From a virus, in IMG/VR virus record IMGVR_UViG_3300035145_002905, positions 1 through 57,700 of that record: a DNA stretch of 57,700 nucleotides; one strand, written 5' to 3'. Shown in pieces: positions 10,324 through 44,996 of this stretch. The number at the start of each line of letters is the position of its first letter. Within the stretch, counting starts at the first letter, position 1. The translations under genes were made by a program, and so were the position numbers. The notes under the pieces were generated by a model. It ran no database searches. It was given only the letters and a program-made list of their open reading frames with translations, and was not told the origin of the DNA.

Positions 10324-10333
10324 TATATTTATA
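10324..10333 (+). promoter_or_regulatory. Late-promoter-like element (TATATTTATA)
   Basis: TATATTTATA lies 14 nt before the ATG at 10348. No TTG occurs at the expected -35 distance. An AAAGGAG ribosome site (10336-10342) lies between them. It is one of a set of similar elements ahead of structural genes. Confidence 0.55.
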
Positions 10334-10347
10334 CTAAAGGAGAAATT

Positions 10348-10722
10348 ATGAAAGAACAATTATTCAAAGTAAGGATTGTTCAAATGATAGCTATCCTATT
10401 ATTTTCTCTGTGTACATTTCCTCTCTTCGGACAAGAATCCAAAGTTATTACACAGATAGACAACAATCTTTACGAGTATAGAGCATTCAACGAAGATGGT
10501 TCTATACACCAAAAAGGAACATACATCGGAACAGAAGATGGAAAATTATTAGTTCATTCTTATTGGAGTGATGATGTAGGAACAAAGGCGTTGTATAACA
10601 AAGGAAAGTTAGTTTGGATTAAACCTAAAGGACAACCTCGTTATACTTATGAACAGATAGAGTACGAACAAATGAAGGCTGAAATCAAAAGATTGAAGGC
10701 GATTGTGGCTCTAAATGACTAA
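10348..10722 (+). CDS. Secreted YwqK/MORN-like protein
   Basis: This 124-residue protein has a signal peptide (hydrophobic stretch at about 11-27, ending PLFGQESK, with likely cleavage before Gln as in many Bacteroidota proteins). The mature part has the repeating pattern EYRAFNEDGSIHQKGTYIG and KALYNKGKLVWI, like YwqK/MORN-type beta-hairpin repeats, and a short C-terminal coiled coil (YEQMKAEIKRLKAIVALN). It has its own late-type element and a good AAAGGAG site, and a strong terminator follows. It may act in the cell envelope during late infection. Its role is unknown. Confidence 0.7.
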   Translation: MKEQLFKVRIVQMIAILLFSLCTFPLFGQESKVITQIDNNLYEYRAFNEDGSIHQKGTYIGTEDGKLLVHSYWSDDVGTKALYNKGKLVWIKPKGQPRYTYEQIEYEQMKAEIKRLKAIVALND

Positions 10723-10747
10723 TCGTAATTCAAAGTGATTAGTAGAT

Positions 10748-10774
10748 AAACCCAACCCCGTAAGGTTGGGTTTT
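10748..10774 (+). terminator. Intrinsic terminator
   Basis: A 10-bp stem, AAACCCAACC at 10748-10757 with GGTTGGGTTT at 10764-10773, has a 6-nt loop and runs into TTTT. It lies 25 nt behind the stop of the secreted protein gene. The rest of 10775-10922 shows no gene that I can support. Confidence 0.9.
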
Positions 10775-10922
10775 CTTATTGACACCTGATATAGTTTACA
10801 CAATTGGTGTGAAATTATAAAACATAGTTTTTATTTAATATATACCCTACTTATTATTGACATGTCCGACGTTTTGTAACATGAGAAAGTTATTTTTCTA
10901 ATTTAAAACAAAGGAGAACAAT

Positions 10923-11153
10923 ATGGATTTTTTGAAGAAAATCGGCTCTTGGGCTGATGAACTAACAAAAATTGGTATTAGTATAATCGCCTTAGGAGTT
11001 GTACTTGAAGTATTATTCAAAGGTGCAGAAATCCCATTTTGGCCAGAGGTATCAGTAGTTGATAACGTAATGGGCATTTTAGGAGGTCTGAGTGCTGAAG
11101 GTCTGTTAGGACTGGTTGGTGCATTTGTACTTTATCATATAATCAAGAAGTAG
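10923..11153 (+). CDS. Small two-helix membrane protein, holin-like
   Basis: This 76-residue protein has a short amphipathic start (MDFLKKIGSWADELTKIG) and two hydrophobic helices at about 16-33 (IGISIIALGVVLEVLF) and 52-72 (GILGGLSAEGLLGLVGAFVLY), ending in basic residues. Size and layout fit a class II holin, and lysis-type genes lie close by. Similar small proteins are widespread in marine phages without proof of function. It is alone between two terminators with an AAGGAG ribosome site (10911-10916), so it is transcribed as a single-gene unit. Confidence 0.7.
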   Translation: MDFLKKIGSWADELTKIGISIIALGVVLEVLFKGAEIPFWPEVSVVDNVMGILGGLSAEGLLGLVGAFVLYHIIKK

Positions 11154-11187
11154 TAATACAGATTGATTCCATAACGCGTTAAAGATT

Positions 11188-11216
11188 AAGCCTCACCCTA
11201 AAAAGTGAGGTTTTTT
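11188..11216 (+). terminator. Intrinsic terminator
   Basis: CCTCAC at 11191-11196 pairs with GTGAGG at 11205-11210 across an 8-nt loop and is followed by TTTTTT. It separates the holin-like gene from the structural block, whose promoter-like element begins 9 nt later. Confidence 0.88.
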
Positions 11217-11224
11217 CATTTACC

Positions 11225-11236
11225 ATATTTATATAA
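11225..11236 (+). promoter_or_regulatory. Late-promoter-like element (ATATTTATATAA)
   Basis: ATATTTATATAA lies 18 nt before the first gene of the tail block (ATG 11255) and directly behind a terminator, which is where a promoter is required. No -35 box is seen at the usual distance. Confidence 0.65.
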
Positions 11237-11254
11237 GAGATAATATATAAAATT

Positions 11255-13504: not shown

Positions 13505-13525
13505 TAATCAAAAAATAAAGAATTA

Positions 13526-13537
13526 ATATTTATATAA
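13526..13537 (+). promoter_or_regulatory. Late-promoter-like element (ATATTTATATAA)
   Basis: The same 12-mer as at 11225 and 29266, placed 21 nt before ATG 13559 in the 54-nt gap. No ribosome site is obvious before this gene. Confidence 0.6.
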
Positions 13538-13558
13538 AGAAACAAACTTTTAATTAAT

Positions 13559-14077: not shown

Positions 14078-14080
14078 TAA

Positions 14081-14512: not shown

Positions 14513-14513
14513 A

Positions 14514-18780: not shown

Positions 18781-18782
18781 TA

Positions 18783-20247: not shown

Positions 20248-20259
20248 ATATTTATATAA
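20248..20259 (+). promoter_or_regulatory. Late-promoter-like element touching the start codon
   Basis: ATATTTATATAA ends 1 nt before ATG 20261. If transcription starts 6-8 nt behind the element it would begin at or inside the gene, so either the mRNA is leaderless or the element works differently here. Confidence 0.5.
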
Positions 20260-26700: not shown

Positions 26701-27312
26701 GTTTCAACTAATATTGTTTCAAACAATAATAATGATGGTTCAATTATATTTAGTATCCCATCACCACTAACTTCATCTGCAGTTGGAGTGTACCTAAGAG
26801 ATTCATTCCAAACAATTCCTTCTGAAGAAAATGGTGATTACTACAATGAGGGATTTGGTATAACTGCCAAAAATGGACACGCAATTGTAACATTCAAAAC
26901 ACCGAATGGTAGAGATAAAGAAAGAAGAAAGTATTATCTAGTAACTGAGAACGTAACTGATACATTCCCAATACTAAATAATAGTTCTGACCAAACAAGT
27001 GGATACACAAACACAAGTGTAACTACTCAAAAGAAAAAATTAACATATGTATCTATATCAGGTTCGGCTCCAAGTGTAGCTGGAAATATAGTGGCGGTAG
27101 AACCAGTTGATGGAAATCTTCGTTCACATTATATTTATACTAAGGATACTTCGACTGGATTAGAAAATTCATTCTTTAATGGATGTAAACAATCTCAGGC
27201 AACTACAATTGATGGTGGTCCTGCGTTTGAAACATTTGTAACTAATCCTAACACTTTAAAGGTTTCAGATAGTGGTAGAGGAAGTGGAGAACCGATTTTA
27301 GAAGTTGAATAA
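20770..27312 (+). CDS. Giant multidomain tail protein (BACON, gpI-like and LamG domains)
   Basis: This 2180-residue protein is the largest in the window. N-terminal residues about 1-235 are low-complexity (Thr/Ser then Gln/Gly-rich). Residues about 442-530 match a BACON-type domain (WITYANERIGRNTFTV, SGRITIKN, INISQGS). Further beta domains extend to about 1000. Residues about 1300-1460 resemble P2 gpI-like tail proteins (LPNNIPQFVKDDEENADFIL, RRILNNLPYIYKSKGTSRGL, IIRVQEFGG). Residues about 1485-1680 are a LamG/concanavalin-type domain with GGFSGSIDNVKLWKTAL. It probably joins the baseplate to receptor-binding parts. The BACON domain is typical of Bacteroidota proteins and their phages. Confidence 0.8.
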   Translation: MFGPEERDFFEKPTGAADNYSLARSYGTQPRGQSVGASANYNFPLIPFNIGGGNTTPISNSTTTTTTRQSTRGTTTTTTSTTRTTSNTPPTQSSATVSNYGQPIAATSFTGGPNVGQLSNQNNQTGQLNVGSIPRIQPSPTPTPEPDLGDAASQTIIQSNPINNIGRAQSSEVVQSGVQTQGQVTGLSPAGARGNIMLDAVGGGNFRFDDGEGGGGQSGGGRGGSSVVQFTIYGPYADACAAYAGKTTTRPVGVFLPQDYGDNFMAPRYFGDRTVTRVFRGGNRWYWDPNGAAILINNDGINSQVKLEPVLVRECEVKPPQPHFVTFTLNYRKGLNHPSAKGTAVSSMSSLNGSVPSSVTSPRLTIPRDVRETVTVATITGAVGTQTSSSTYTIQRRSANGKHTFNLLKNGSVVESNTVNDSVKGGNSSHFAFNVAFDYTKITPPTPYLTVAPNGFAVPPASSVHVFDIASSSGIQVISKPSWITYANERIGRNTFTVSPNATGKSRSGRITIKNLEGITQSINISQGSAVIVPDPTSFTADIAFFYKAGNNATKTGKVTASGVPTLSGTFGYRSLDPTAEVVLEKSATRERILLGLIGEDSNGKKAIEEYQVRYVYKDGDFEVNLYSNGTRLIESKIYEVGKGNKLVPKNGTKYTAVFNFVRQVDDPPLPNPPVLEISANMPQNVHIGDIEIDPKNGTKVKRLSFVNGFILTAEKLATLGITDDYWVKVIPKPGFKFTEWAQVAPGGGILRKLSDLNNWVALSGDGTVYEWEFDVSRKTEESKDPQVYPTVDTIEYNLLSSDSVMIPYTSNKDTSYVNIKFPDRDFRDNPSNGEFRLRKDYFNKGLGRYIVNFCPYGPQGQRGPEKQVIINVINQEVGYYPDIRDIRYPKKIQGADFVGLDVPFEFSYQSVFTDYVEVYLNDKSTRIGGKFGKVDKVKLNVKDLVKYSGKFKKNKDVYTFTFLLIPYGRNSKESLVGKTEKITIVFDEGDLKLDRNKVIMDICDSLAAQLDYKGFDEYTSKYLTHLLHFGDTNNEVISNWNVDTETFREYEIDPVTKRPTNTKKSDVGFDALVLKMYEPLDTTVQPNQQVWITKIQSEPQLHEVVIRETDNDYCPPLAAPNFSLDTSTGMGYELFDDMLASGTETNAQLVNTFVSQSGIDTKKLDIQYVSGAVTYNSQSLQYESSSQVISWERFSHFGSAEERIKNFWYKVSTIENFNNVSSSLESADNASTSLTIVAEKQRQVRKINEVKAGFDGFEDFLYNSTSSLAYPKNSDGTLLSTGSSDAINWYEVTSYSGSRHDYYNVNYLPNNIPQFVKDDEENADFILFLDMIGHHFDILWAYTKNINRARKLEHKKIDNGVSDELVREMLRSFGYTPKSTMDTAPLWEFALGQYNNQNSARTDGTAKSVMTGKERQSQIWRRILNNLPYIYKSKGTSRGLRAILSTYGISDSIIRVQEFGGPPPQRVSTPTKYTELTETFSLGMDSNSRVTIPWHTGSSYPQTIEFSIQTEEKQDGVIFRNDMFYLELLQDTGSLATFKFHITGSDVTESVQTSTIPFFNDTINSFMIRRTAISGSANETFDIFVKEPFQERVRAQVSASLEIAINESGWNSGSELVFGGFSGSIDNVKLWKTALSESIFDEHVLAPDMYNGNSISSSTEELFVRLDFEEAKNLATSSSFADSGSYRNTAPNVDLYGETFVSMSGFTTSSSYPYGAFNRLVTERTRVVPSTGLASADKISIKSQTLKSELSPKARATKSGLKENSTDSNRLGLFISPTNNINRDITKALGGTFKIDNFIGDPCAYYDEEYTDLKNFRRSFFSKYTINYDGFYNLIKYIDSTLFDTIQSSVPGRAKATTGLLIEPHLLERNKKQNKRPSGIVFEELVGVEDISKNSVIEISSTSEKIEGFLTASELSPDLSGLHGLYETTMSHEFVDNLSGSYATYNTTMDYEFVTPISGSFVNIDGIVTGSNSATLVSTNIVSNNNNDGSIIFSIPSPLTSSAVGVYLRDSFQTIPSEENGDYYNEGFGITAKNGHAIVTFKTPNGRDKERRKYYLVTENVTDTFPILNNSSDQTSGYTNTSVTTQKKKLTYVSISGSAPSVAGNIVAVEPVDGNLRSHYIYTKDTSTGLENSFFNGCKQSQATTIDGGPAFETFVTNPNTLKVSDSGRGSGEPILEVE
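20938..21050 (+). repeat. Low-complexity Thr-codon tract
   Basis: ACA/ACT-rich microsatellite-like DNA encodes an almost pure Thr/Ser/Arg linker at about residues 57-93 of the giant tail protein. It is likely flexible and prone to length change by slippage. Confidence 0.7.
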
Positions 27313-27333: not shown

Positions 27334-27345
27334 ATATTTATATAC
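27334..27345 (+). promoter_or_regulatory. Late-promoter-like element (ATATTTATATAC)
   Basis: The element lies 25 nt before ATG 27371 in a 58-nt gap, followed by a purine-rich leader (AAAGGTAAAAGGAAAAA). No -35 box is seen. Confidence 0.62.
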
Positions 27346-29231: not shown

Positions 29232-29257
29232 AAACCCCATCGTGAATGGGGTTTTTT
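29232..29257 (+). terminator. Intrinsic terminator
   Basis: AAACCCCAT at 29232-29240 pairs with ATGGGGTTT at 29246-29254 across a 5-nt loop and is followed by more T residues. It ends the unit of 27371-29206. Confidence 0.9.
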
Positions 29258-29265: not shown

Positions 29266-29277
29266 ATATTTATATAA
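29266..29277 (+). promoter_or_regulatory. Late-promoter-like element (ATATTTATATAA)
   Basis: The element starts 9 nt behind the terminator and ends 9 nt before ATG 29287, with AAAGGA overlapping its end as ribosome site. This placement between terminator and gene is strong evidence that it is a promoter. Confidence 0.7.
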
Positions 29278-29286: not shown

Positions 29287-30444
29287 ATGTTTAAAAAGAT
29301 ACCACAAGACCAAATAGTACGAAGAACATTTGAAGTTAATAAAGATGTAAGATTAACTCAAGATGATGTTGACGTATATCAAGTGTATGGTGTGAGCGGC
29401 TCATACGATGCAGATACCGACCCTGTCGTTGGGGCATCTGGTAGTTTTCCTGGTTATTCGGTAAGAGGTATTTATAACTCAACAAAAGCAAAATATTATA
29501 ACCCATCTGCTTCATTATTTGAATATGGTGGTGGGTTTACCAAAAATCAAGTATATGTACAAAATGCACCAACTACAATGAGTGTTCTCTCATTTAGGGC
29601 GTGTGTTAAAGGTGAAGCTATATTACCAGGTTCATTTCAATTACAAGATAATACCACAGGACTAACAGTTGTTGATTCAGAAACTTCTACAACAATAACA
29701 AATGAATCACCAGAATACTTAGTAGAATCATTTGATTTTTCTACTGGTGAGGTAATATTAGCCGATAGTTCAAGCACTGAACTGTATATAGAATCTATTG
29801 ATTTTAATACTGGTGAAGTAGAGATATCATACAATGGTGTATTAGAATCACCAAACCCAACATTAACAACGTTAAATGGATTAAACAGTAAATTATCATT
29901 TTCAACACCATTAACAATACTAGACCAAGTAGCTGGAGCAACAGTTTCATATGGACAGTTATTCCAACAAAGTGGTGATTTAATTCTTGATACTGGTGAA
30001 AATCCAGATTTGTTACAAGATTTTGAATTAAATTTTAAATCAACAACAACAATATCAGAATTAGAAGTTTTAGTTAGTGTAGAACCAGGTGAGTTTACTA
30101 CATCAACTAATCCAACTGCAGTTGATTATTTCAATATTACAACATCATCTTTTGAACATACACAAACAGATGAAAGAGGAAATCCTCTAGTAGAAGTTAT
30201 CAAAAACTTTACTCCTAGAAAAAAATCCTATATTTATAGTAGCTATGGAAACGCCACAGGTAGTTTTGATGACTACGATGTGAGTAGTTCATTAGACCCG
30301 ACAGGTTCTTATTTAACTACATATGTTACTTCCATAGGGTTATATGATGATAATTCGGAATTACTTGCTATTGCAAAAGTTGCAAGACCAGTAAAATTAT
30401 TACCCGATTATCCAATAAACTTTTTAATAAAATTGGACACATAA
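29287..30444 (+). CDS. Tail structural protein with shared C-terminal module (copy 2)
   Basis: This 385-residue beta-rich protein has an internal short repeat, ESFDFSTGEVILADSSSTEL then ESIDFNTGEVEISYNG at about 147-185, that looks like a duplicated beta-hairpin. Its end, TSIGLYDDNSELLAIAKVARP then FLIKLDT, matches the end of the preceding protein. The shared module is probably a docking or trimerisation domain. An internal TATATTTATA at 30229-30238 resembles the late element and could serve the two small genes downstream. Own promoter and ribosome site are present. Confidence 0.65.
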   Translation: MFKKIPQDQIVRRTFEVNKDVRLTQDDVDVYQVYGVSGSYDADTDPVVGASGSFPGYSVRGIYNSTKAKYYNPSASLFEYGGGFTKNQVYVQNAPTTMSVLSFRACVKGEAILPGSFQLQDNTTGLTVVDSETSTTITNESPEYLVESFDFSTGEVILADSSSTELYIESIDFNTGEVEISYNGVLESPNPTLTTLNGLNSKLSFSTPLTILDQVAGATVSYGQLFQQSGDLILDTGENPDLLQDFELNFKSTTTISELEVLVSVEPGEFTTSTNPTAVDYFNITTSSFEHTQTDERGNPLVEVIKNFTPRKKSYIYSSYGNATGSFDDYDVSSSLDPTGSYLTTYVTSIGLYDDNSELLAIAKVARPVKLLPDYPINFLIKLDT

Positions 30445-32277: not shown

Positions 32278-32284
32278 AAATGCC

Positions 32285-32315
32285 TTGGAGCTTTAAAATA
32301 TTTTTTGTATATTAG
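32285..32315 (+). promoter_or_regulatory. Promoter ahead of the primase gene (TTG-N20-TATATTAG)
   Basis: TTG at 32285-32287 and TATATTAG at 32308-32315 are 20 nt apart. The upstream 19 nt AAAAATGCCTTGGAGCTTT are identical to 6938-6956 ahead of the lysozyme-like gene. The primase ATG at 32336 is 20 nt downstream. Confidence 0.72.
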
Positions 32316-32335
32316 CTCTGTATATTGTATAAATT

Positions 32336-33274
32336 ATGCTTTCACAACGCGATAAATCAGTTATAATCAACATATTAGATGATATACTTGGTGTTGGTAC
32401 ATCATTAAAAGGAGATGAACAAGCACACCATTGTCCATTTTGTCATCACCATAAGAAAAAGTTACAAATAAACTTGAATACACAACAATGGCATTGTTGG
32501 GTTTGTGATGCAAAAGGTAAAAAGATTCAAACTCTTTTAAAACGTTTGCATGTTGATTCAAAAAGGATACGAAAAGTTTTTGAAATATATGGAGATGATT
32601 ACATCGTTTCTACAACTACCGAAGAAGAAAAGGTAGAACTAAGGTTACCATCAGAATTTAAATCACTATTGGTAAAACCGAAAGGTTTGAATCCATTATA
32701 CAGAAAGGTGGTACAATATGCAAAAGACAGAGGTCTTACTAAAGAAGATATTATTCGTTATAATATTGGGTATTGTGATACTGGTATGTACTCCAATCGT
32801 ATTATTATTCCGAGTTATGATGGAGATAATAGACTCAATTACTTCATCGCACGGTCTGTATTCTCTGAAGAAAAGTTTAAATACAAAAATCCGCCGGTAT
32901 CGAAGAATGTTACGATATTCGAGAATCAGATTAATTGGAATGAACCTATTACATTATGTGAAGGAGTGTTTGATGCGATGAGTATCAAAAGAAATGCTAT
33001 TCCTCTTTTGGGTAAATTTATTCCAAAAACTTTAATGGATAGTATATATAAAAAAGGGATAAAGGAAATAAAGATTATTTTAGATAAAGATGCTCAATCA
33101 CAGGCACTTTATTATGTAAATTATTTTATGAATAATGGAATAACTGTTACAAACGTTTTACCTACCGAAAAAGATGCTGGAGAGATGGGATTCTCAAAAG
33201 TAAATCAAAAATTAAAAGATACTAAAAAAACTGCATTTGAAGATGTGGTGTTACAAAAATTAAAAGGTTTATGA
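32336..33274 (+). CDS. 61: DNA primase (T4 gp61/DnaG-like)
   Basis: This 312-residue protein is a DnaG-type primase. A four-Cys zinc finger (Cys33, Cys36, Cys54 and Cys57; HCPFCHHHKK then WHCWVCDAKG) is at the N-terminus, and a TOPRIM domain with LCEGVFDAMSI at about 206-216 and ILDKDAQS at about 246-253 supplies the acidic metal-binding residues. It makes RNA primers for lagging-strand synthesis. No helicase part is fused. It overlaps the next gene by 4 nt and leads the unit that ends with the gp47/46 fusion. Confidence 0.93.
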   Translation: MLSQRDKSVIINILDDILGVGTSLKGDEQAHHCPFCHHHKKKLQINLNTQQWHCWVCDAKGKKIQTLLKRLHVDSKRIRKVFEIYGDDYIVSTTTEEEKVELRLPSEFKSLLVKPKGLNPLYRKVVQYAKDRGLTKEDIIRYNIGYCDTGMYSNRIIIPSYDGDNRLNYFIARSVFSEEKFKYKNPPVSKNVTIFENQINWNEPITLCEGVFDAMSIKRNAIPLLGKFIPKTLMDSIYKKGIKEIKIILDKDAQSQALYYVNYFMNNGITVTNVLPTEKDAGEMGFSKVNQKLKDTKKTAFEDVVLQKLKGL

Positions 33275-34506
33275 TATACACTTTAGAGAAACCGTATAAT
33301 CAAGGATTATATGTAGGGTGGACTGAGTTTTTAAAATCAACTAACATACCATATGAAACTTTAGTTGATAATACATTGGAACAAGATGTAGAGTTTGAAA
33401 GTTTCATGTCATTTCAACATAATATTGATTTTATAAATGAAAAAGTAAAAAAAGAAAATACTTTGATAATAGATTCTTCTTATTTTAGAAGAGAAGATGG
33501 TTCATGGCTTAACTTTCCACAAATAAATGAGTGGTGTAAAAAACTAAATTCAGATAATATAATCGTAATGCATCCCGATACTGGTTATTCACCAGATGAG
33601 GCATATAATGAAAATGGAGTAAAGGTATTAACTCCAACATATAAATTAGAAGAATGGGATGATAATAAATTACAAAGTAACTATAACTTTTATATTTGTA
33701 ATGGGGCATATCAATCTTTAAAATGGTTGGCATCAATTATCTTTGAAAGATATAAAGAAATGTTAAGAGCAAAAAAATTCTTATCATATAATGGAGTTTA
33801 TAAAATTCATAGAACATTAATCCAAAAAACATTAGAAGATAATGATTTAATGAAAGATACTTTCTTTTCATACAATGCATATAATATCTTAGATGAAAAC
33901 TGTAATCACAACTATGAATTTGATGTAGATTATAATAATTTTACAGAGACACTTTATGGACACAATTCAAAATATCATAATGTAAAAGATTTTAGAGAAA
34001 AAGAAGTATTACCATATTATAGTAAAGAAGAACACGAAAAATTATTAAAAAAATTACCAGTAGTTTTAGATTATATTCCAAACCTTTCAAATGTAGACCA
34101 ATATGCTTTTACATTACCATATACTTCAAATGCATATGTAGAAATTATTGGGTGTACTAGTTTGAATGGTAATGGGAATGAAATTTATACTTCTGAAAAA
34201 ATATTTAAACCATTCATGTCATATCTAATTCCTATCTTTATAGGTCAAAGAGGATTATTGACATTATTAAAAAAACTTGGATTTGAATTAGAGTTTGATG
34301 GGTTAGTAGATATAAGTTATGATTCTATTGAATGTAACTTAGAAAGAACCAAACAGGCACTAGAAAATGTAAAAAGAATTGGAGAATTTTCAATTGCAGA
34401 ATTACATAACAACTATCACAGACATCGTGAAAAGTTAATCCACAATAATAAATTAATGAAAGAACTCTACACAAAACAAGTAGATTCATTTAAGCAAATA
34501 ATATGA
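33271..34506 (+). CDS. Glycosyltransferase-like protein (EKxxKP family)
   Basis: This 411-residue protein has no clear N-terminal family motif, but the C-terminal SEKIFKPFMSYLIPIFIG at about 308-325 matches TEKTLKPIMNLHPFFVVG in 52248-53618 and a similar block in 2927-5059. This E-K-x-x-K-P motif followed by a hydrophobic strand is like the sugar-nucleotide-binding end of some GT-B or fucosyltransferase-type enzymes. Its place between primase and recombination genes is unusual for a glycosyltransferase, so DNA-base glucosylation is worth considering, but there is no direct evidence. Confidence 0.5.
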   Translation: MIYTLEKPYNQGLYVGWTEFLKSTNIPYETLVDNTLEQDVEFESFMSFQHNIDFINEKVKKENTLIIDSSYFRREDGSWLNFPQINEWCKKLNSDNIIVMHPDTGYSPDEAYNENGVKVLTPTYKLEEWDDNKLQSNYNFYICNGAYQSLKWLASIIFERYKEMLRAKKFLSYNGVYKIHRTLIQKTLEDNDLMKDTFFSYNAYNILDENCNHNYEFDVDYNNFTETLYGHNSKYHNVKDFREKEVLPYYSKEEHEKLLKKLPVVLDYIPNLSNVDQYAFTLPYTSNAYVEIIGCTSLNGNGNEIYTSEKIFKPFMSYLIPIFIGQRGLLTLLKKLGFELEFDGLVDISYDSIECNLERTKQALENVKRIGEFSIAELHNNYHRHREKLIHNNKLMKELYTKQVDSFKQII

Positions 34507-37500
34507 TAATTAACAAAGTTTATCACTTGGCAGATTTACATATTCGTAATCTCCAAAGACACAAAGAATATAAAATTATATTCAAAAAGTTTTTAAAACA
34601 AGTTAAAGAAGATAATATCCAAGATTCTGTTATCTACATAGCAGGGGATATTGCACATGCCAAAACTGAAATGTCTCCAGAGTTGGTTCATCAGATAAGT
34701 TGGTTTCTTACTGAATGTGCAAAGTTAAGAGAGACAATAATAATAACAGGTAACCACGATTGTAACCTAAATAATTCCCACAGACTAGATGTACTCACGC
34801 CAATTATCGAAAATTTGGGAAATAATCGAATTCATTATCTTCGTGATACTGGTGTCTATAATATTCATAATCTTACTTTTGTTGTCTATTCTATATTGGA
34901 TAACAAGGAAAATTGGCCTAAAGGAGATACCATTGATGGAGAAAATAAAATCGTTTTATTTCATGGACCAGTAAACAAAGCTCAAACTGATATCGGCTAT
35001 ACCGTCTCCTCTAATTCTTTTCAAGTAGATATGTTTGATGGATACGATATGGCCATGTTGGGTGATATTCACAAAAGACAAACCTTTGGTGAAGGATACG
35101 AGTGGGTTGCATATGCTGGTTCTATGATTCAACAAAATCATGGTGAGTTGCTTGAGAATCATGGATATTTACTTTGGGATATTCCAACACGAACTTTTAC
35201 AGAACATCACATACATAACGATTATGGATTCTTAACAGTTGATGTAATTGAAGGAAAAATACCACAATGGGTTTACGATGAGGTTGGAACAAAACTTCCA
35301 AAACATCCAAGATTAAGATTAAGATTTACAAAGACAGAACCAAGTGATATGAAAAGATGTATCACCGAACTTAAAAAATTATTTAAAGTTCAAGAGGTTA
35401 CTGTTACACGAACAGATACAATCGGTCAACTTAAAACCAATACAAAAGTAAACAAAAATATTGTTGGTAACGTTAGAGAAGAGACCTTTCAGAATCAGTT
35501 AATTAGAGATTACTTAGAAAGACAATATCTATTAGAATCAGATGAACTAGATAAGATACAAGAAATAAATACAGAACTAAATTCTCAGTTCTCGAATCAC
35601 GAATTTGCTGAGAACATTCTATGGACACCAAAAGAGTTTGAGTTTTCTAATATGTTCTCTTATGGTGAAAACAACTTAGTAAGGTTTGATAGAGCACAAG
35701 GTATCGTTGGTATCTTTGCACCAAACGCAAGTGGTAAATCATCTCTTTTCGATGCACTATCATTTTGTATCTATGATAAAACATCTCGTACTACATCATC
35801 TAAAAACATCCTTAATAATCGAAAGGATAAGTTCTACTGTAAGTTTAACTTTGAGATAGATGGAATTAACTTTTACATAGAAAGAACTGCTAAATGGACA
35901 AGAAGAGGTACTAATCTAAAGGTAGATGTAAACTTTTGGAAAGAAGATAGTGGAGTGATAGAATCACTTAATGGAGAACAACGAAGAGAAACTAACAAGA
36001 ATATTGAAAAGTATTTAGGTAAGTTTGAGGATTTTGTTTTAACAACACTTTCACTACAAGGAAACAATGCACTATTCATTGATAAATCACAATCGGAAAG
36101 AAAAGAAACTCTTTCTCAATTTATAGGGGTAGATATCTTTGATAAACTATATCAAGTTGCAAGTGACCAAAACAGAGATAATGCAACACTTATCAGAAAG
36201 TTCAAGTCTGACGATTTTACGACAAAACTTGCCGACATCGATACACAATTAAAAACCGATAAAAACGATTACAAACTTTTAGAGATAAATCAAAAGGCAT
36301 TAGTTGAAGAAGAAGAAGTTTTAAATAAAAGGATTATATCTCTAAATGAGAAAATTGTAAAGTTACATTCAGATAGCGGAGTATCGATAGATGAATTAGA
36401 AAAAAGATTAAAAATCCTTCAAAAGAAAAAAGAAGATATCCAAACTCAAAAATCATCTATTCAAGATAGAATTACTTATAGAGAAGAATTACAAATTGAA
36501 TTAGATGAAATCTTAGATAAATTTGATGAAGAAGATTTAGAAGAAGGAATTGGTACTTTAAGACAATTAAAAGGAAACGTTTCTAATATTGAAGGTGAAG
36601 TAGAAAAAGTTAATATTAAATTAGAATCTTTACATGAAAGAAAAGACCACTTAGATTCTCATAAATATAATGAGGATTGTGATATCTGTATGGAAAACTC
36701 TAAATCTATTTTGGAAACAAAAGAAAAAGTAGAATCTGAAATAAAAGAAAAAAAATCAGAATTACAATCTTTTGAAAAAGAAAAATTAGAATTAAATATT
36801 GAAATAGATTCTTTAAAGGGTTATGAAAAAGAGTGGAAAAACTTCCAAGAGGCAAAAGAAAAAGAAGATAAGATTGATAGAGAGATAAGTGGACTTATCA
36901 ACAAGTTATCAACAATCGAAACTGAAGAATTACGAAATTTACAACAACTTACTCAACAAGAGCAACTTATTGAGGAATATTATAAGAACGAAAAGCAGAT
37001 TAACAAGAACAAGGAAATCAGAGATGAGATTAGTGGAGTAAGAGAAAAACTTGGTACTGTTAAAGATGAACTCAAAGGATACAACACAGATATTCTTAAA
37101 TTGAATGGTAAGATTTCTGCTCTTCAAAATCAAAAAGAAACTATTGAAGATAGAATATCTGAAGTTAAAACTTTGGAATCGCAAAGTAAATTATATGATT
37201 ACTATTTAAACGCATTAAGTAGAGATGGTGTATCTTATGAATTGATTGAAAAGGCATTACCAATGTTGGAAGGTGAAGTAAACAACATCTTAGGACAGAT
37301 TGTAGAGTTTGGAATGCAGTTAGAGATTGATGGTAAGAACATTAATGCATATCTTGTATATGGAGACCAGAGATGGAGTTTGGAAATGTGTAGTGGTATG
37401 GAAAGGTTTATTAGTGGTTTAGCAATTAGAGTTGCTCTAATTAATGTATGTAACCTACCAAGACCTAATTTCCTTGTGATAGATGAAGGATTCGGTACAT

Positions 37501-37661
37501 TAGATAGTGAGAACCTACAATCTTTATTTATGTTGTTTACATATCTTAAAACTCAATTTGATTTCGTAATGGTAATCTCACACATTGACTCGATGAGAGA
37601 CGTAGTTGATGGTCTTGTTGAGATTAAGAAAGAAAAAGGATTCTCAAATGTTAAGTACTAA
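34503..37661 (+). CDS. 47/46: Fused gp47-gp46 recombination nuclease/ATPase (SbcD-SbcC type)
   Basis: This 1052-residue chain joins two proteins that are separate in T4. Residues 1-360 are an Mre11/SbcD nuclease with DLHIR, AGDIAHAKTE, GNHD at about 83-86, LFHGPV and GDIHKRQ. Residues about 370-1052 are a Rad50/SbcC ATPase with Walker A APNASGKSS at about 405-413, two coiled-coil arms around a zinc hook CDIC at about 726-729, signature MCSGMERF at about 961-968, Walker B FLVIDEGFG at about 989-997 and H-loop ISHID near 1025. The complex trims ends for recombination-dependent replication. All catalytic motifs look intact. Confidence 0.95.
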   Translation: MIINKVYHLADLHIRNLQRHKEYKIIFKKFLKQVKEDNIQDSVIYIAGDIAHAKTEMSPELVHQISWFLTECAKLRETIIITGNHDCNLNNSHRLDVLTPIIENLGNNRIHYLRDTGVYNIHNLTFVVYSILDNKENWPKGDTIDGENKIVLFHGPVNKAQTDIGYTVSSNSFQVDMFDGYDMAMLGDIHKRQTFGEGYEWVAYAGSMIQQNHGELLENHGYLLWDIPTRTFTEHHIHNDYGFLTVDVIEGKIPQWVYDEVGTKLPKHPRLRLRFTKTEPSDMKRCITELKKLFKVQEVTVTRTDTIGQLKTNTKVNKNIVGNVREETFQNQLIRDYLERQYLLESDELDKIQEINTELNSQFSNHEFAENILWTPKEFEFSNMFSYGENNLVRFDRAQGIVGIFAPNASGKSSLFDALSFCIYDKTSRTTSSKNILNNRKDKFYCKFNFEIDGINFYIERTAKWTRRGTNLKVDVNFWKEDSGVIESLNGEQRRETNKNIEKYLGKFEDFVLTTLSLQGNNALFIDKSQSERKETLSQFIGVDIFDKLYQVASDQNRDNATLIRKFKSDDFTTKLADIDTQLKTDKNDYKLLEINQKALVEEEEVLNKRIISLNEKIVKLHSDSGVSIDELEKRLKILQKKKEDIQTQKSSIQDRITYREELQIELDEILDKFDEEDLEEGIGTLRQLKGNVSNIEGEVEKVNIKLESLHERKDHLDSHKYNEDCDICMENSKSILETKEKVESEIKEKKSELQSFEKEKLELNIEIDSLKGYEKEWKNFQEAKEKEDKIDREISGLINKLSTIETEELRNLQQLTQQEQLIEEYYKNEKQINKNKEIRDEISGVREKLGTVKDELKGYNTDILKLNGKISALQNQKETIEDRISEVKTLESQSKLYDYYLNALSRDGVSYELIEKALPMLEGEVNNILGQIVEFGMQLEIDGKNINAYLVYGDQRWSLEMCSGMERFISGLAIRVALINVCNLPRPNFLVIDEGFGTLDSENLQSLFMLFTYLKTQFDFVMVISHIDSMRDVVDGLVEIKKEKGFSNVKY

Positions 37662-37815: not shown

Positions 37816-37855
37816 AGGTTTCCATAGAATATATATACAGATATTCAATTACACA

Positions 37856-37865
37856 ATATTTATAC
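37856..37865 (+). promoter_or_regulatory. Late-promoter-like element (ATATTTATAC), possibly two-way
   Basis: ATATTTATAC lies 4 nt before the fibre ATG (37870). Read on the other strand it contains TATAAATA, the T4 late box, pointing at the minus-strand RHH gene. It may drive both. Confidence 0.5.
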
Positions 37866-37869
37866 CTGT

Positions 37870-40800
37870 ATGGCAATAATAAAGAAATTTTCATCTAAAG
37901 AAAATTTGAGTAAATATGGTGTGTTTTTAAACGATACCAATCCAAACTCAACTTACTTTAGAATTACAGAGTTAGGAGAAAATCTAACTGGCGGTAAGAA
38001 TGCATTTCTTATAGAAGGTTCTGAGTGTCTAAAAGAAACAACTGAAATAAAAGTTGAAGTACTAGATGTTAATGGAAATCCAATTTACTTCGAACCTGGT
38101 CAAGGAATTCCACAATACTACGAAGGATTATCTAAAGTAGTTGGAATTTATGTATATGAAGATACTCCTATTGGTTTAGGAAAAATTACCATACTTGGTG
38201 AATTAAAATCATACTTTGATGAAGATGATAACAAAGTAGATGTACCAGAACAATGGAAAGGTATTTACAATGTTAAGTGGGAAAAATCATTAAATATAAA
38301 CAAAAACCTAGCAAATGAAACTAGAGTTAGATTTTTCAAAAAACCACAAATCGATATACAAGAAATTTCAAAACCCTTATTTACAAAAACAATTCCAATT
38401 GCAGTACACACTGGTAGTGTAGAGGGTATTCCACAAGTACCACCAACTGGTCAAAAGTATGGTTCATATGCTGGTGGTGTTTTATATAAACTAGTTCATT
38501 CATCTGGCCCATTATTTACGGCCTCTATGGATGAAAACAGAATATTATTACCAGATTTAGATTGGAATCCAACGATAAAAGAAGTATTAAGTGAAACAGA
38601 ATTATTAGTTGATTCTGCATACACCAGTTCAGATGGAACAGTTAGTGGATTTGGTGCAAGGACATATACATCTTCGTTTGAAAATGGTGAAGGAGTAACA
38701 GTAGTAGAATCGGCATTGACTGGTTCGTTTGCAAAAATAAAAATTACAAATCTTAAAACGTTTGTTGGTGATGTTGCAAGAGTAAAGGTATTTAGAAAAT
38801 CAAGAAATGAAGCTGGTGATTTTACTTTAGTACAAGAACAAAAATTAGAATCAACAGAATTACTAAAAGATATTGCAACTCAGGCAGATACTGAACTATC
38901 ATATGGATTATTTAACGATTACAATCTGTCTAATTATTGGATAACATCTTCAAACACCCACCCAGTCACTTTAAATAATACACAATTATTAAATTCTATA
39001 AAAGTTGATTATGCAGGAAGTGGTACTCAACTTATTTACACTTCAGAATCAATTGATGTAGGAAGTGAAATAGAATACAACTTATCATTCAAAACAAAAC
39101 TAAGTGGTTCGGTAGATACTTCAAAAGAAATAAACGCATATCTTAGTTCATCTGAATTTACACAATCAATAGTAACTGTAAGTGGTTCTTCAGATACACT
39201 TCAAAAATTTGATGTGAATAAAAACATAATTTCACAAAACTCTGGTAGTGCAAGATTAGTATTAGAAGTAAATGGAGATGATTGGTACATTTCTAATATA
39301 TCATTTAAAAATGCAGAAGAATCTTCGTTCTCACCAGATGAGTTTACATTGGTACAAGAAGTTCCAAGAAAACTAGATTCAGAATTTTTTGATTTTAAAT
39401 TTGAATTCTACGATATCAATAATAACTTTATACCAGTAGACCTAAAAACTTCAAAAGAATTTAGTGGTGGTAATTTAACAACAACATCGAATGTTAGATT
39501 ATTAGAATTTGAAACTGATAGAACTGCATTCCGATTCTCAAGTGGTTCATTAGGTAATCCACCATTTCAACAATCAAGATTTAGAGTAACATCAAATGGA
39601 TTGACTGGTTCAATTACATTTGCATCTGCTGCATTTGATAAGAATGGTACATTTATAGACCCATCAACTTATAGTGGAGCATATCCAGGTGGGTTAACAT
39701 CGAATAACGTCTTAACCATAGCATCATTTAGTGGTTCGGATAGTTCTGTTATAGTTGGTTCAATTACTTATACAGCATCTATTGAAGATAAAGAAGAAAT
39801 AGAAACTATAACAAGATTCGAAGATGGTGAACCTGCATCTGCACTTATTGTAACATCAAATCAAAATCAGTTCTTTTACAAGGCAACTGATTTATCAGTA
39901 GAACCAAGTGGACAACAAATACAGATTCAGGCACAAAGAAAAAATCTTGCATCTGATACAACAACGATTACAGTAAATAGTGGAAGTGGTAAACCTGGTC
40001 TTACACAAGGTTCAACTGTAAATGGTATAACTTCATTTACTTTAAATGCAAGTGATTATCCATTTGGGACAGGAAATACCACATATGAGTTTAGCGGTTC
40101 AGATGAATTTGGTTCAGAGTTTGTAGATAGAATATCAATTGCACCAGTCAAAAAATTCGATGGTGTTTCATTACAACTTACAAATAACAATCAAACATTT
40201 AACGCAACTTCACAAAGTGCTGTATCATCACTAGCAGATAGTAGTGGTTCAGTAACATTTAGAATAGGTACAGAACTTATTCAATTCCAAAATGGATTAT
40301 CATCAAATAATAGATTTGATATTGCAGGAATTACTGGTTCTGGTTGTGTACCAACTAGTACAACTCCTAGTAAAAATGAATACTCACTTTCTGCATTTGA
40401 TTCAGATAGTGGTTCATTAACAATTAACATTGATTATAAAGATGGTAGTGGCGATGTATCAGAATTTCAACAAGTTGTAAATTATACAAAAGCAATTGCT
40501 GGAAATACTGGAGTAGATGGACAAGATGGACAAGATGGTGCTGATGGTACACCCGGCCCTCCTGGCCCTGGTGTTACTTATAGAGGTTTGTGGGAATTAA
40601 ATGGAGAGTATGTATCTTCATCACTAAGAAGAGATGTTGTACAAGGTTCTAATGGAGAATATTATTTAGCAAAATCTTCTCATACTGCAAGTAACTCAAA
40701 TCAAAGACCAGTTGATGGTGGTTCATATACAACATATTGGGATACTTTTGGTGCAACATTTAGTTCAGTTGCAACTGATATTTTATTCTCACAAGATGTA

Positions 40801-43740
40801 TATGCTAATAGAACAGTAAACGTAGGTTCAAGTGGTTCTGGTTATCCACTTATTGCATTAAATGCAGATACCGCAAACGCAGGAACAAATCAAGACCCAT
40901 ATATTGCACTTGGTGGAATTACACAATATGCAGCTGCAAATGGTATATATTTAGGATATGATAGTGGTGATACAAAACTTAGTTTAAAAGGTGGTGCATC
41001 TGATGGATTCCTTACATGGGATGGTAGTAATCTAAACATACAAGGTTCAATTAATATAACAGGTGGTGCAACTGCAGATTCTATATCTGCTCTAAATTCA
41101 GAAACAAGTTCACTACAAACTGGAGTAAATAATTCTGTATTGAGTGGTTCAGCAGCAGCAAATAACGCCGTAACAAGTGGTTCTGCAGCAGCAAATAACG
41201 CCGTAACAAGTGGTTCAAACGCAGCAGCCAATGCTGCAACATCTGCTTCAAATGCCCAAAGTACCGCGAATCAAGCTTTAACTTCTGCACAAGAAAGTGG
41301 TTCGGTAGACCCAACTACGAGAAGAGTAACTAAAAATGCCACACCAAGTGGTGCAGGATTATATTTAGGTGCAAATAATTTAGGATATTATGATTCATCA
41401 AATTGGAAAGCTTATTTAAATTCAAGTGGTGAATTTTATTTAGGTAGTAATACAGATTCAAACTATTTAGAATGGAATGGAACTAACTTATCAATTGCTG
41501 GTTCGATTACAATTACTGCAGGTCCAACTTCGGAACAATTAGAACAGTTGAATTCTGCAACAGAATCACTACAAACTGGTGTAGATAATTCTGTATTGAG
41601 TGGTTCATCAGCTGCTTCAGATGCCCAAACAAACGCTCAAAACTTTGCAAGTACTGCAGCAAGTGCATCTGCTGCTAATGCTAGTGGTTCTGCAATTGAT
41701 TCATCAACCGCACTTTTGAATACAAGTGCATCTGCTCTTCAAGGAAACATCGATACCGCCCAATCAACCGCAAATACAGCTACACAATCAGCTGCTAATG
41801 CTCAATCAACCGCTAACAGTAATGCTGCCTTAATACCGAATACCTCTACTGGTCTTATTGATTTTACACCATCACCAAGTGGAGAAGGATTATTTTTAGG
41901 AGCTAACGAATTAGGATTCTATTCTGGTAGTGGTTGGAAAACATATATGTCATCATCGGGTGATTTTTATCTGACAGGACAAGGTGGGGGTTTAACATGG
42001 AATCAAACTGGTTCAGCTTTAACAATTCAAGGTAGAATTAGTGGTTCTCAAATACAAGGTGGTAGTATTATAGGTTCTTCCCTAGCAGGTGGACAGATAG
42101 ATGTACCAAATGCAGACGCACCTTTATTTCATGTTGATACTGCAGGAAATATGAGTGCACAAAACGTATCAATATCAGGTTCTGTAAATCTTGATGCAGG
42201 AACAATCGGTGGTTGGACAGTAGATGATGAAGATTCAGGTGGTGCACTAAGAGATTCAGATACAAGAATTAAGTTTGACCCAAGTTTACCAGAAATACAA
42301 TTATATGATTCAAGTGGTAATAGAAAAGTTGCTATTGGTCCAAACGAAAATTTAACTTCACCTGGTTCATCTGATATTTCTGTTAACAATATTGGTTCAC
42401 AAACAAATGGTACAACAGTAAGTTCAACAACTAGTGGTAGTTATACATCAGTAGCATCTGCATTTGCACAAAGTAATGCCTCAAGTAACTTTACTATTGG
42501 TTCAGCAGGAAGTTGGAATATTACAAACCTTTCTATCTCAAGTACATTTACTCAAACCACAACAAACATACCAAGTGTAACCGCAACAGTTTCTTCACCA
42601 GCATATAACTACTATCCATCATATCTTTATGATTATCATCAAGGTTCTGCAATTGGGGGTACAAGTTATGTTTATTTGTATCTTAGTTTATATACTTCAA
42701 CTAACCAATTAGTTCATAGAGAAACATTAACATATTCTTATGCTAGAGGTGCATACAATAGTGGTGCATATTACTACGCTACAGCCAATAGTTATTCTCC
42801 AACTGGATATGTTTGGACATATGGGGGTGGTGGTTCAACAGTCTCTGCTACAAGTTATGCATCAAGTACATATAGTGATGATTTTTTAATTAATGTGGAG
42901 AATACTGGAACTCATTACTTCAAATACGAAACAAACGTTGTAAATAGGTCATCTTATAAAACAGATATAGATGCTTATGGAAATACTTCAACAAGTTTTT
43001 CTACATTTACAAAAAGTGGATTAAATTTAACTCTTGGTGACCCATATGTAACATTAGCAGCACCATCAAACTTTGTAGAAATAAACGCAGGTGGATTCCA
43101 GGCAGTATCAGATTCATCTCAATATGTTAGAATAAGAAGAGTTGCACAAGGAACATCTAATCCAAATTTAATGAATGTAGTAGGTGGGTATCTTACCTGC
43201 GGTGAGTATAGTGATGACCATGATATAACTAGACAAAGAAACTATGGAAAAACTGAGATTGAAGGTCAATTAGAGGTAGGAGATACATGGCAATCTACAG
43301 GTGGTGTAAAAAGAGGTATATTTCTTAACGGTAATATAAATATAAAAAGTAATTCATCTGGATTTGGTGGTACATCAACTTCGGGTATTGGGGCATCAAG
43401 TAGTGGTAATCTCGGAAACAGCATTAAAGCTAGTGGTAATTTTGTAGTACTAAATCCATCTGCCACAAGATATTATACTCTCCCATGTGTATATGCTGGT
43501 ACTGAATATGCTGATGGAAACGATTGGTCTAATGGAGATATAATTTGGATTTGGAATAGAAATGATAGTCAAACTGCTAGAATTTATGGTTTAATACATG
43601 GTGGGTTAAACTCATATTACAGTTTAAATGGTGGTGCAGCAATGATGTGTATATATTGGACCAGTTTTGGTTCAAGTTGGAATAGTAATACAGATAAAGG
43701 ATGGGTTATTATGAGTGACCCTGTTGATAATACTGGTTAA
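37870..43740 (+). CDS. Giant fibre-like protein with collagen-like and repeated modules
   Basis: This 1956-residue beta-rich protein is likely the long tail fibre or receptor-binding fibre. Residues about 1-880 hold several Ser/Thr-rich beta domains. A collagen-like GQDGQDGADGTPGPPGPG stretch at about 882-899 is followed by GVTYRGLW. Three related modules follow at about 1020-1080, 1156-1220 and 1331-1395, each with a GLYLGANxLGxY-type strand, SSGEFYL and an end like LSIAGSITI. Ala/Ser/Asn coiled-coil linkers with AxSTANxA repeats separate them. The C-terminus (about 1550-1956) is Tyr/Ser-rich and unique, fitting a receptor-binding tip. Sugar genes follow directly. Confidence 0.8.
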   Translation: MAIIKKFSSKENLSKYGVFLNDTNPNSTYFRITELGENLTGGKNAFLIEGSECLKETTEIKVEVLDVNGNPIYFEPGQGIPQYYEGLSKVVGIYVYEDTPIGLGKITILGELKSYFDEDDNKVDVPEQWKGIYNVKWEKSLNINKNLANETRVRFFKKPQIDIQEISKPLFTKTIPIAVHTGSVEGIPQVPPTGQKYGSYAGGVLYKLVHSSGPLFTASMDENRILLPDLDWNPTIKEVLSETELLVDSAYTSSDGTVSGFGARTYTSSFENGEGVTVVESALTGSFAKIKITNLKTFVGDVARVKVFRKSRNEAGDFTLVQEQKLESTELLKDIATQADTELSYGLFNDYNLSNYWITSSNTHPVTLNNTQLLNSIKVDYAGSGTQLIYTSESIDVGSEIEYNLSFKTKLSGSVDTSKEINAYLSSSEFTQSIVTVSGSSDTLQKFDVNKNIISQNSGSARLVLEVNGDDWYISNISFKNAEESSFSPDEFTLVQEVPRKLDSEFFDFKFEFYDINNNFIPVDLKTSKEFSGGNLTTTSNVRLLEFETDRTAFRFSSGSLGNPPFQQSRFRVTSNGLTGSITFASAAFDKNGTFIDPSTYSGAYPGGLTSNNVLTIASFSGSDSSVIVGSITYTASIEDKEEIETITRFEDGEPASALIVTSNQNQFFYKATDLSVEPSGQQIQIQAQRKNLASDTTTITVNSGSGKPGLTQGSTVNGITSFTLNASDYPFGTGNTTYEFSGSDEFGSEFVDRISIAPVKKFDGVSLQLTNNNQTFNATSQSAVSSLADSSGSVTFRIGTELIQFQNGLSSNNRFDIAGITGSGCVPTSTTPSKNEYSLSAFDSDSGSLTINIDYKDGSGDVSEFQQVVNYTKAIAGNTGVDGQDGQDGADGTPGPPGPGVTYRGLWELNGEYVSSSLRRDVVQGSNGEYYLAKSSHTASNSNQRPVDGGSYTTYWDTFGATFSSVATDILFSQDVYANRTVNVGSSGSGYPLIALNADTANAGTNQDPYIALGGITQYAAANGIYLGYDSGDTKLSLKGGASDGFLTWDGSNLNIQGSINITGGATADSISALNSETSSLQTGVNNSVLSGSAAANNAVTSGSAAANNAVTSGSNAAANAATSASNAQSTANQALTSAQESGSVDPTTRRVTKNATPSGAGLYLGANNLGYYDSSNWKAYLNSSGEFYLGSNTDSNYLEWNGTNLSIAGSITITAGPTSEQLEQLNSATESLQTGVDNSVLSGSSAASDAQTNAQNFASTAASASAANASGSAIDSSTALLNTSASALQGNIDTAQSTANTATQSAANAQSTANSNAALIPNTSTGLIDFTPSPSGEGLFLGANELGFYSGSGWKTYMSSSGDFYLTGQGGGLTWNQTGSALTIQGRISGSQIQGGSIIGSSLAGGQIDVPNADAPLFHVDTAGNMSAQNVSISGSVNLDAGTIGGWTVDDEDSGGALRDSDTRIKFDPSLPEIQLYDSSGNRKVAIGPNENLTSPGSSDISVNNIGSQTNGTTVSSTTSGSYTSVASAFAQSNASSNFTIGSAGSWNITNLSISSTFTQTTTNIPSVTATVSSPAYNYYPSYLYDYHQGSAIGGTSYVYLYLSLYTSTNQLVHRETLTYSYARGAYNSGAYYYATANSYSPTGYVWTYGGGGSTVSATSYASSTYSDDFLINVENTGTHYFKYETNVVNRSSYKTDIDAYGNTSTSFSTFTKSGLNLTLGDPYVTLAAPSNFVEINAGGFQAVSDSSQYVRIRRVAQGTSNPNLMNVVGGYLTCGEYSDDHDITRQRNYGKTEIEGQLEVGDTWQSTGGVKRGIFLNGNINIKSNSSGFGGTSTSGIGASSSGNLGNSIKASGNFVVLNPSATRYYTLPCVYAGTEYADGNDWSNGDIIWIWNRNDSQTARIYGLIHGGLNSYYSLNGGAAMMCIYWTSFGSSWNSNTDKGWVIMSDPVDNTG
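41152..41217 (+). repeat. Tandem 33-bp repeat inside the fibre gene
   Basis: Two adjacent 33-nt copies (41152-41184 and 41185-41217) differ only at the last base. They encode the repeated AAANNAVTSGS helical linker. The near identity at DNA level shows a recent duplication and a site of possible length variation of the fibre. Confidence 0.85.
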
Positions 43741-43752
43741 AATTAAAATATT

Positions 43753-43995
43753 ATGGCAAAAACAATAATTACATTAACAACAACACAAGAGAATGATACG
43801 GTCATAACTCAACAAATTGAGAATGAAAAAGATATAAAAAAAACTCATACTGTAATAGATGACCTTGCAGCATATTTACCAATTTATGAAAGAGAGTTTG
43901 ATAAAGCAAATCCAAACAACAAACTTAAAATGGTAGTTGCAACAGATGAAAGAGGTATTGAGATTTTAAGATTAACTAAAAACGAATATCTTTGA
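43753..43995 (+). CDS. Small protein behind the fibre gene, unknown
   Basis: This 80-residue protein starts MAKTIITLTTTQENDTVITQ and is otherwise acidic and helical, ending RLTKNEYL. No family was recognised. Position right behind the fibre suggests a fibre chaperone or adaptor, but this is only a guess. Its stop overlaps the next TTG start (TTGA). Confidence 0.6.
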   Translation: MAKTIITLTTTQENDTVITQQIENEKDIKKTHTVIDDLAAYLPIYEREFDKANPNNKLKMVVATDERGIEILRLTKNEYL

Positions 43996-44978
43996 AATTA
44001 TTAGTAACAACAGGTTTTGGAAATATCATTCAAGGTGGAGCCGATATTTGGGTAAATCATTTTATAGATTTAGTTTTACCAAAATTAAAAGATGAATATA
44101 TAATATTCGTTGATGGTAAACGACCTGTCGGATTTGAAACCAAACTCAAAAATTTTCACTTTCATGGAGATGATTTTAAACGTTCTGAAGAACTTTTAGA
44201 AGAATGTGATACAATCCACTTCTTACATGCAAATTATCACAAGAGAGAACATCTATGGAAACATAAGGATAAGTGGGGTATTATATTTGTACATGCGTAT
44301 CTACCCGATATGTTGAAATATGGTGATTCAGTAAAACAATTTAATACAAATGTAAATGAAGATGAATTTTTAGAATTACTTCATCATTGTAGAAAAAGAA
44401 TTTGGATTGGAAATAATCCATCACAACTACACGAAGATTTTCCAATAAGAACTTATACAGTAACTAATTTTTATGAATTTAAACAAAATAAATTAGCAGA
44501 TGTACAACACAAAAAAATTGGGTTCACATCAAGAATAGAATCAAGAAAGAATGTACACTACTTAGATGGATTTGAAGGGTTGGTATTATCAAACAGATAT
44601 GATTGGAAGAATATAACAGAAACTACTGATTATGATTTCTCAAAAATAAAATTTTATCAATGGGATATAAATATTCATGAACAATTTATGAAGTTAGATT
44701 GGGATATCGCACATTGTTGTCATACAAACGAACCATTCGGATATAATATATTTCAAGCGGTTGATTGGGGAAAAATTCCTATCATACATACTGATTGGGG
44801 AAAGATAGATTATAGATATAAAGCAAATGATAAAGAAAGTTTTGGTTATGCATATGGAAATATTTTAAGAGATACACCAATGCAACGAACAAAGGAATTT
44901 ATTAAACTAAAAAGATATCTTCAAAAATTCGATAATAAATCTAAGTGGGTAGAAAAAATTATCGTTTTCTTAAAATAG
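43992..44978 (+). CDS. Glycosyltransferase (GT-B, GT4-like)
   Basis: This 328-residue protein starts LLVTTGFGNIIQGGADIWVNHF, a GT4-type acceptor-side start with GGADIW. GFTSRIESRKNVHYLDG is at about 176-192 and EPFGYNIFQAVDWGKIPI at about 245-262, in the place of the nucleotide-sugar-binding E-x7-E block but with the second Glu replaced. The start is TTG at 43992, overlapping the stop of the preceding gene. It is the first gene of the sugar island. It probably adds a sugar to a surface or virion glycan. Confidence 0.78.
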   Translation: MKLLVTTGFGNIIQGGADIWVNHFIDLVLPKLKDEYIIFVDGKRPVGFETKLKNFHFHGDDFKRSEELLEECDTIHFLHANYHKREHLWKHKDKWGIIFVHAYLPDMLKYGDSVKQFNTNVNEDEFLELLHHCRKRIWIGNNPSQLHEDFPIRTYTVTNFYEFKQNKLADVQHKKIGFTSRIESRKNVHYLDGFEGLVLSNRYDWKNITETTDYDFSKIKFYQWDINIHEQFMKLDWDIAHCCHTNEPFGYNIFQAVDWGKIPIIHTDWGKIDYRYKANDKESFGYAYGNILRDTPMQRTKEFIKLKRYLQKFDNKSKWVEKIIVFLK

Positions 44979-44984
44979 TTATAT

Positions 44985-44996
44985 ATATTTATATAC
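44985..44996 (+). promoter_or_regulatory. Late-promoter-like element (ATATTTATATAC)
   Basis: It lies in the 30-nt gap before ATG 45009, 12 nt upstream of it. It matches the element before 27371 exactly over 12 nt. It would allow separate late expression of the sugar island. Confidence 0.6.

Follow-up and report, generated by a model that had tools for sequence, protein, structure and literature searches.

A directional late box and a distant gp55 homologue in relatives of Flavobacterium phage immuto: a probable variant of the T4 late transcription system

Late transcription in phage T4 involves gp55, gp33 and gp45 together with the box TATAAATA. In a 57,700-nt stretch of viral DNA (the whole stretch analysed, hereafter the window), an A/T-rich element recurs shortly before genes, and a gene at 7877 had been read in the first-pass annotation as encoding a gp55-like protein. 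The questions raised by this locus are whether the element is a late promoter, in which direction it is used and whether the phage-encoded protein reads it.

The window holds 12 copies of the 9-mer ATATTTATA, ten on the + strand and two on the − strand (dinucleotide shuffles: 4.6 expected, maximum 11). Intergenic DNA, taken from a hand-curated list of 51 genes and comprising 4.7% of the window, contains 8/10 sense copies, each no more than 30 nt 5′ of an ATG, and no antisense copy; all genes relied on are on the + strand. These eight boxes fall in 17 gaps where 0.22 were expected, and none of 2000 gap dinucleotide shuffles reached eight (maximum 4). Asked whether it is as frequent in genes as upstream of them, the motif proved to have a density of 2.95/kb in intergenic DNA and 0.036/kb in genes. 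Sense copies inside genes, at 27131..27139 and 30230..30238 (both +), numbered two, with 2.6 expected from codon shuffling; as the count is no higher than that expectation, they are chance occurrences. The latter had been listed at 30229 and the former was missing from the earlier list. Antisense copies inside genes start at 43335 and 44666.

All eight upstream copies reported earlier are present on the + strand, the first at 10325 rather than 10324. Distances to the ATG start at the 3′ end of the 9-mer. The box at 10325..10335 has the sequence ATATTTATACT and lies 14 nt before the ATG at 10348, and the box at 37856..37866 reads ATATTTATACC and lies 5 nt before the ATG of a 1956-aa protein at 37870. 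The remaining six read ATATTTATATA: 11225..11235 (21 nt, ATG 11255), 13526..13536 (24 nt, ATG 13559, in front of a unit with gp25-like and gp6-like baseplate wedge genes), 20248..20258 (4 nt, ATG 20261), 27334..27344 (28 nt, ATG 27371), 29266..29276 (12 nt, ATG 29287) and 44985..44995 (15 nt, ATG 45009). As had been noted, two boxes directly follow intrinsic terminators, which a terminator scan placed at 11188-11213 (stem before 11225) and 29232-29254 (stem before 29266), and no TTG occurs 14-23 nt 5′ of any of the eight.

Relatives of the window were collected as five long records (84-287 kb), and Flavobacterium phage vB_FspM_immuto and T4 were used whole; genes in unannotated relatives were called with a simple longest-ORF script. 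When non-coding stretches before genes of the window and the five relatives were subjected to unsupervised k-mer enrichment, ATATTTATA was the top 9-mer (91 seen, 1.7 expected, reverse complement 10), and, overlapping k-mers aside, the next class was CGTATATT/TATATTAGC. The profile of 93 sites was T-ATATTTATA-T-A, with only an A/T-rich preference farther upstream; together with the TTG-spacing count given below, it supports the proposed promoter class without a −35 element. At the level of sequence, the element is a single directional box with the consensus TATATTTATATA and no −35. Across 20 whole records, ATATTTATAYA was nearly always on one strand. Among the papers searched, none had ATATTTATA together with phage.

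In the T4 genome, analysed with the same script as a positive control, TATAAATA was found in sense orientation before starts in 21/32 cases and TATTTATA in 5/32. This preference is reversed in the window group, where TATTTATA is the sense form before starts and sense TATAAATA is not enriched before genes. Because the box is oriented with its gene, and because a divergent gene pair in one relative (G002) carries two boxes, 184188(−) and 184216(+), each directed toward its own gene, the box is directional and used as TATTTATA. When both are read the same way round, TATTTATA matches TATAAATA at 6/8 positions and differs only at positions 4-5 (AA in T4, TT here). The earlier suggestion of a changed late box is upheld. 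The reverse complement of TATTTATA is TATAAATA, a likeness that arises because the sequence is near-palindromic.

The second k-mer class has a different architecture. A host-type promoter of the sigma operon (6944..6975, +) consists of TTGGAGC-N-TATATTAGC, with a −33 TTG, a 20-nt spacer and a −7 element, and another (32285..32316, +) precedes the DNA primase gene at 32336. Segments 6940-6975 and 32281-32316 have 17 nt in common, AAATGCCTTGGAGCTTT, with TATATTAGC at a constant distance behind. Judged by their sequences, the two constitute a class of early/middle promoters in which TTG lies 19-20 nt upstream; in the window, host-type promoters serve the sigma operon and primase, not the late units. 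In the window and relatives, TTG was present at 18-20 nt in 31/31 TAnnTTAGC sites and 40/45 TCGTAnnTT sites, classes that resemble the Bacteroidota sigma-A type in sequence, versus 8/93 late boxes, which therefore lack the TTG 18-20 nt upstream of TAnnTTTG that marks sigma-A promoters. A host-type sequence precedes the sigma operon in the window and in 4/5 relatives inspected; in G002, no gap with such a promoter was found within the five genes inspected. Separately, an TATATTTAGGTATCAATAATTAAAACA-like upstream element is strongly enriched before genes in the immuto genome and is possibly an early promoter class.

The 239-aa protein encoded at 7877..8596 (+; P0001) contains an N-terminal aromatic motif, a sigma-2 domain at about residues 30-120, an extra helical domain at about 139-226 and a short C-terminal tail ending DEFWQG. 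Its family profile was aligned to an 18-sequence gp55 alignment using hhalign with a score of 44.4 and P 6e-6, whereas 60 column shuffles scored no higher than 22.7, and the match was collinear from an N-terminal Y-x-AII-x-(W/Y) segment to the sigma-2 core. The gp55 alignment alone settled homology: hhalign with single sequences gave no significant match to T4 gp55, P0001 alone had no convincing sigma match in Pfam or PHROGs, and PDB sequence searches with the sigma gave no match. Sigma70_r2 was weakly matched by 13/42 family members (best E 0.0095) and was the sole family with more than two. An AlphaFold model of P0001 (pLDDT 75) matched mostly sigma factors in Foldseek, with weak E-values (best PDB 0.03), and matched phage sigma factors in BFVD; against T4 gp55 (7d7c_F), prob was 0.98, TMt 0.60 (gp55 length) and rmsd 4.3 over 117 columns, with E 0.98. 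P0001 is a distant gp55 homologue, with sequence homology over the N-terminal segment and sigma-2 domain and a sigma-2 fold in the model, and the gp55-like assignment made from the sequence alone is supported by the profile-profile alignment and Foldseek. Full-length Foldseek alignments of the model to two-domain sigmas suggest that the C-terminal domain may be sigma-4; no Pfam region-4 match supports this.

Directly upstream of sigma, 7600..7875 (+) encodes a protein of 91 aa that begins with a hydrophobic segment of the membrane type and carries the motif SDDEVG. It adjoins sigma in every genome checked, including immuto, Mel-JY01 and LR756508, and is a candidate regulator or anchor of sigma. 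It was considered as a gp33 analogue and rejected, given its hydrophobic segment, its SDDEVG motif and the lack of gp33 likeness.

One IMG/VR scan returned 485 relatives of the 7877 protein, a second viral-contig scan started from the immuto protein returned at least 600, and a viral-contig scan with the Mel-JY01 sigma as query returned none. Six phage records match the protein, including immuto (37%), Microcystis phage Mel-JY01 (41%) and LR756508 (46%). In immuto, the box precedes the genes for terminase, portal, tail sheath, tail tube, baseplate hub, tape measure and tail spike. The earlier statement that the element stands before structural genes is therefore clear in this annotated relative and only partly shown in the window, where most downstream proteins are without a family match. 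The window is a fragment in which no capsid or polymerase gene was recognised. The boxes of 11225 and 27334 also occur at the immuto orthologues gp117 and gp107, respectively, and in all five relatives; between window and immuto, the box is kept at these two genes while the proteins share only 38-46% identity. Box, direction, position, class structure, sigma homology and the box before immuto structural genes are thus established at the sequence level. In the Bacteroidota phages FCL-2, phi38:1 and phi14:2, used as negative controls, there were 3-7 copies of the 9-mer and none before gene starts, and none of the three matches the 7877-type sigma. The box was not seen in the parts searched of Mel-JY01 and LR756508, both sigma carriers, so either box and sigma must have co-evolved or their pairing is looser. 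The phage group is widespread and marine and apparently infects Bacteroidota, the host being indicated by the immuto relationship and the promoter type.

Other genes recognised in the window encode a UV endonuclease UvdE (102-1001), a peptide deformylase (6261-6881), a NodU-type carbamoyltransferase (8574-10295), two proteins in which a galactosyltransferase family 7 domain is joined to a laminin-G/concanavalin-like lectin domain (46716-48242 and 48640-50109), and a 1052-aa protein (34503-37661) that resembles SbcD at its start and SbcC/Rad50 over the remainder and so apparently fuses the T4 gp47 and gp46 functions.

At 112 non-redundant sites, the gap between box and ATG was 3-6 nt (15 sites) or 13-44 nt (97 sites), and never 7-12 nt; by the same count the window box at 29266 is at 12 nt, so that the empty interval is strictly 7-11 once every site is included, and immuto-type loci are less clean, with sites at 9 and 11. 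Two distance groups would be expected if transcription started about 4-7 nt past the box, where the ATG either is the mRNA start or leaves room for a leader. Transcription probably begins there, and genes with an ATG 3-6 nt behind the box are probably translated from leaderless mRNA; 2/8 window boxes (20248 and 37856) fall in this predicted class. Residue 1 of the protein at 37870 aligns with residue 1 of its relatives, in which the distance from box to start is 3 nt in G004 and about 20 nt in G002, G003 and G005, making a calling error for this start codon unlikely. Boxes of T4, measured with the same pipeline, are 13-34 nt from the ATG, whereas some here are only 3-6 nt away. In Flavobacterium psychrophilum, leaderless mRNAs make up 5.5% of the mapped set (PMC9723704).

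We consider it highly probable that the boxes are real late promoters of a variant T4-type system, probably read by the phage's gp55-like sigma; the mechanism is one that we infer from these sequences. In the most likely scheme, promoters of the Bacteroidota host type (TTG, about 20 nt, TAnnTT[T/A]G) would drive the sigma operon, and the gp55-like sigma (7877-8596) with the host RNA polymerase core would then recognise TATATTTATATA, giving the order host sigma, phage sigma, late units. Initiation would occur about 4-7 nt downstream of the box, and an ATG 3-6 nt behind it would yield a leaderless mRNA. The pairing of sigma with box is drawn from their co-occurrence, and reading of the box by sigma, start site, leaderlessness and late timing are predictions of the scheme.

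The boxes could instead be read by host sigma alone, as variants of the −7 element (TAnnTTTG) found in Bacteroidota housekeeping promoters, with the gp55-like protein doing something else. We regard this as unlikely, though it is the strongest of the competing explanations: TATATTTA fits TAnnTTTG save for the last base, and the flavobacterial sigma-A box at −12 to −5 (PMC9723704) is compatible with the start position predicted for the late box. However, the same genomes carry a separate host-type class with the TTG that late boxes mostly lack (31/31 and 40/45 versus 8/93), the late box has an extra conserved ATA behind TTT, and Bacteroidota phages without the sigma are without the box.

That the element acts as a translation or mRNA-processing signal close to start codons, and not as a promoter, is very improbable. 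The box is always near a start codon, and in Bacteroidota translation initiation is favoured when the sequence preceding the start codon is A/T-rich (PMC6847099); yet the box precedes the first gene of a unit, twice directly behind terminators, its distances of 3-44 nt with the empty 7-12 interval fit a start site and not ribosome contact, and T4 late boxes in the same pipeline provide a direct parallel. Least probable of all is the earlier proposal that the element is the T4 box in reverse orientation or a promoter working in both directions. Reverse complementation of TATTTATA does give TATAAATA, but the strong bias toward gene orientation, the single box for each of the divergent genes in G002, the intergenic DNA of the window free of antisense copies and the 6/8 match to T4 already present in the same direction leave this proposal unsupported.

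Given late promoters read by the gp55-like sigma, a further point is whether they would be coupled to a sliding clamp. T4 gp55 and gp33 bind the clamp through their tails (PMC2988020, PMC7892883); in the gp55 family, the clamp-binding tail is hydrophobic, C-terminal and preceded by a variable linker. In the window group, Pfam clamp models gave no convincing match, while the T4 clamp was found as a control. G002 encodes a family B polymerase and a gp44-like loader. Close behind its polymerase, the ORF at 45478-46191 has a PCNA/gp45-type clamp fold (Foldseek E 5e-13, with a modest model of pLDDT 60) and falls below the cut-off of every Pfam clamp model; viral contigs contain 49 relatives. A profile built on this ORF picks out the clamp in Mel-JY01 and LR756508 and no clamp in immuto and two immuto-type records; these three have family A polymerases and no match to the gp44-like loader. 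Clamp and gp44-type loader are present in G002, Mel-JY01 and LR756508 and in neither the 57.7-kb window fragment nor the immuto-type records. A clamp-less system, suggested by the Pfam absence, was rejected for the PolB branch, where polymerase, loader and PCNA-fold ORF were found. An F[WFY] motif in the variable sigma tail occurs in nearly all of 52 window-type tails and is absent from 16 immuto-type tails; Mel-JY01, which has a clamp but no obvious tail motif, spoils a perfect correlation. With clamp and loader encoded and an FW tail motif conserved in PolB relatives, T4-like clamp activation is possible there. By these sequence features, clamp coupling is plausible in the window's branch and was probably lost in immuto's. 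A gp33 search (phrog_254, which found T4 convincingly) gave only one weak in-gene match in the window (E 0.001), judged to be chance, though a diverged gp33 could be missed.

A broader reading is offered tentatively. Within the T4 late system, these phages may represent a large branch, made up of Bacteroidota phages, in which the box core changed from AA to TT along with the sigma, some late mRNAs are leaderless, and immuto kept sigma and box but lost clamp, loader and tail, uncoupling late transcription from replication. Clamp coupling is regarded as general in T4 relatives. The analysis provides a predicted late regulon, a previously unannotated sigma and a rule for recognising promoters of a sigma family that viral contigs very commonly carry, and in this group nature itself provides a test of how the box of a gp55-type sigma changes and whether clamp coupling can disappear. 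Immuto is an isolated phage that has a laboratory host, Flavobacterium sp. LMO8.

Among known systems, Bacteroidota sigma-A promoters (TTG/TAnnTTTG) share the TATATTT core with the late box and differ in their −33 TTG at 19-20 nt and final G. In immuto (Immutovirus), a sigma with 37% identity lies among the same neighbouring genes, and the same box stands before structural genes; unlike the window's relatives in the PolB branch, immuto has a family A polymerase and no clamp, loader or FW tail that could be found, and its sigma, gp118, is annotated only as a hypothetical protein. In T4 relatives, a gp55 homologue is paired with a late box that drifts between lineages: boxes of KVP40, 44RR and S-PM2 are near-identical to that of T4, and the Aeh1 box is changed at −13/−12 (PMC2988020). 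The reported alteration in Aeh1 is confined to those positions, whereas here the middle of the box is altered. As in T4, a single oriented −10-like box without −35 precedes late genes and a gp55-homologous sigma is encoded, and the PolB relatives may share more with T4, since they have a clamp of the gp45/PCNA type, a loader resembling gp44 and a sigma tail that is short and hydrophobic. In contrast to T4, the box reads not TATAAATA but TATTTATA (AA to TT at positions 4-5) with fixed flanking T-A, no gp33 was found, the immuto lineage is without a detectable clamp or loader, and the sigma has 239 aa with an extra helical domain, compared to 185 aa for gp55.
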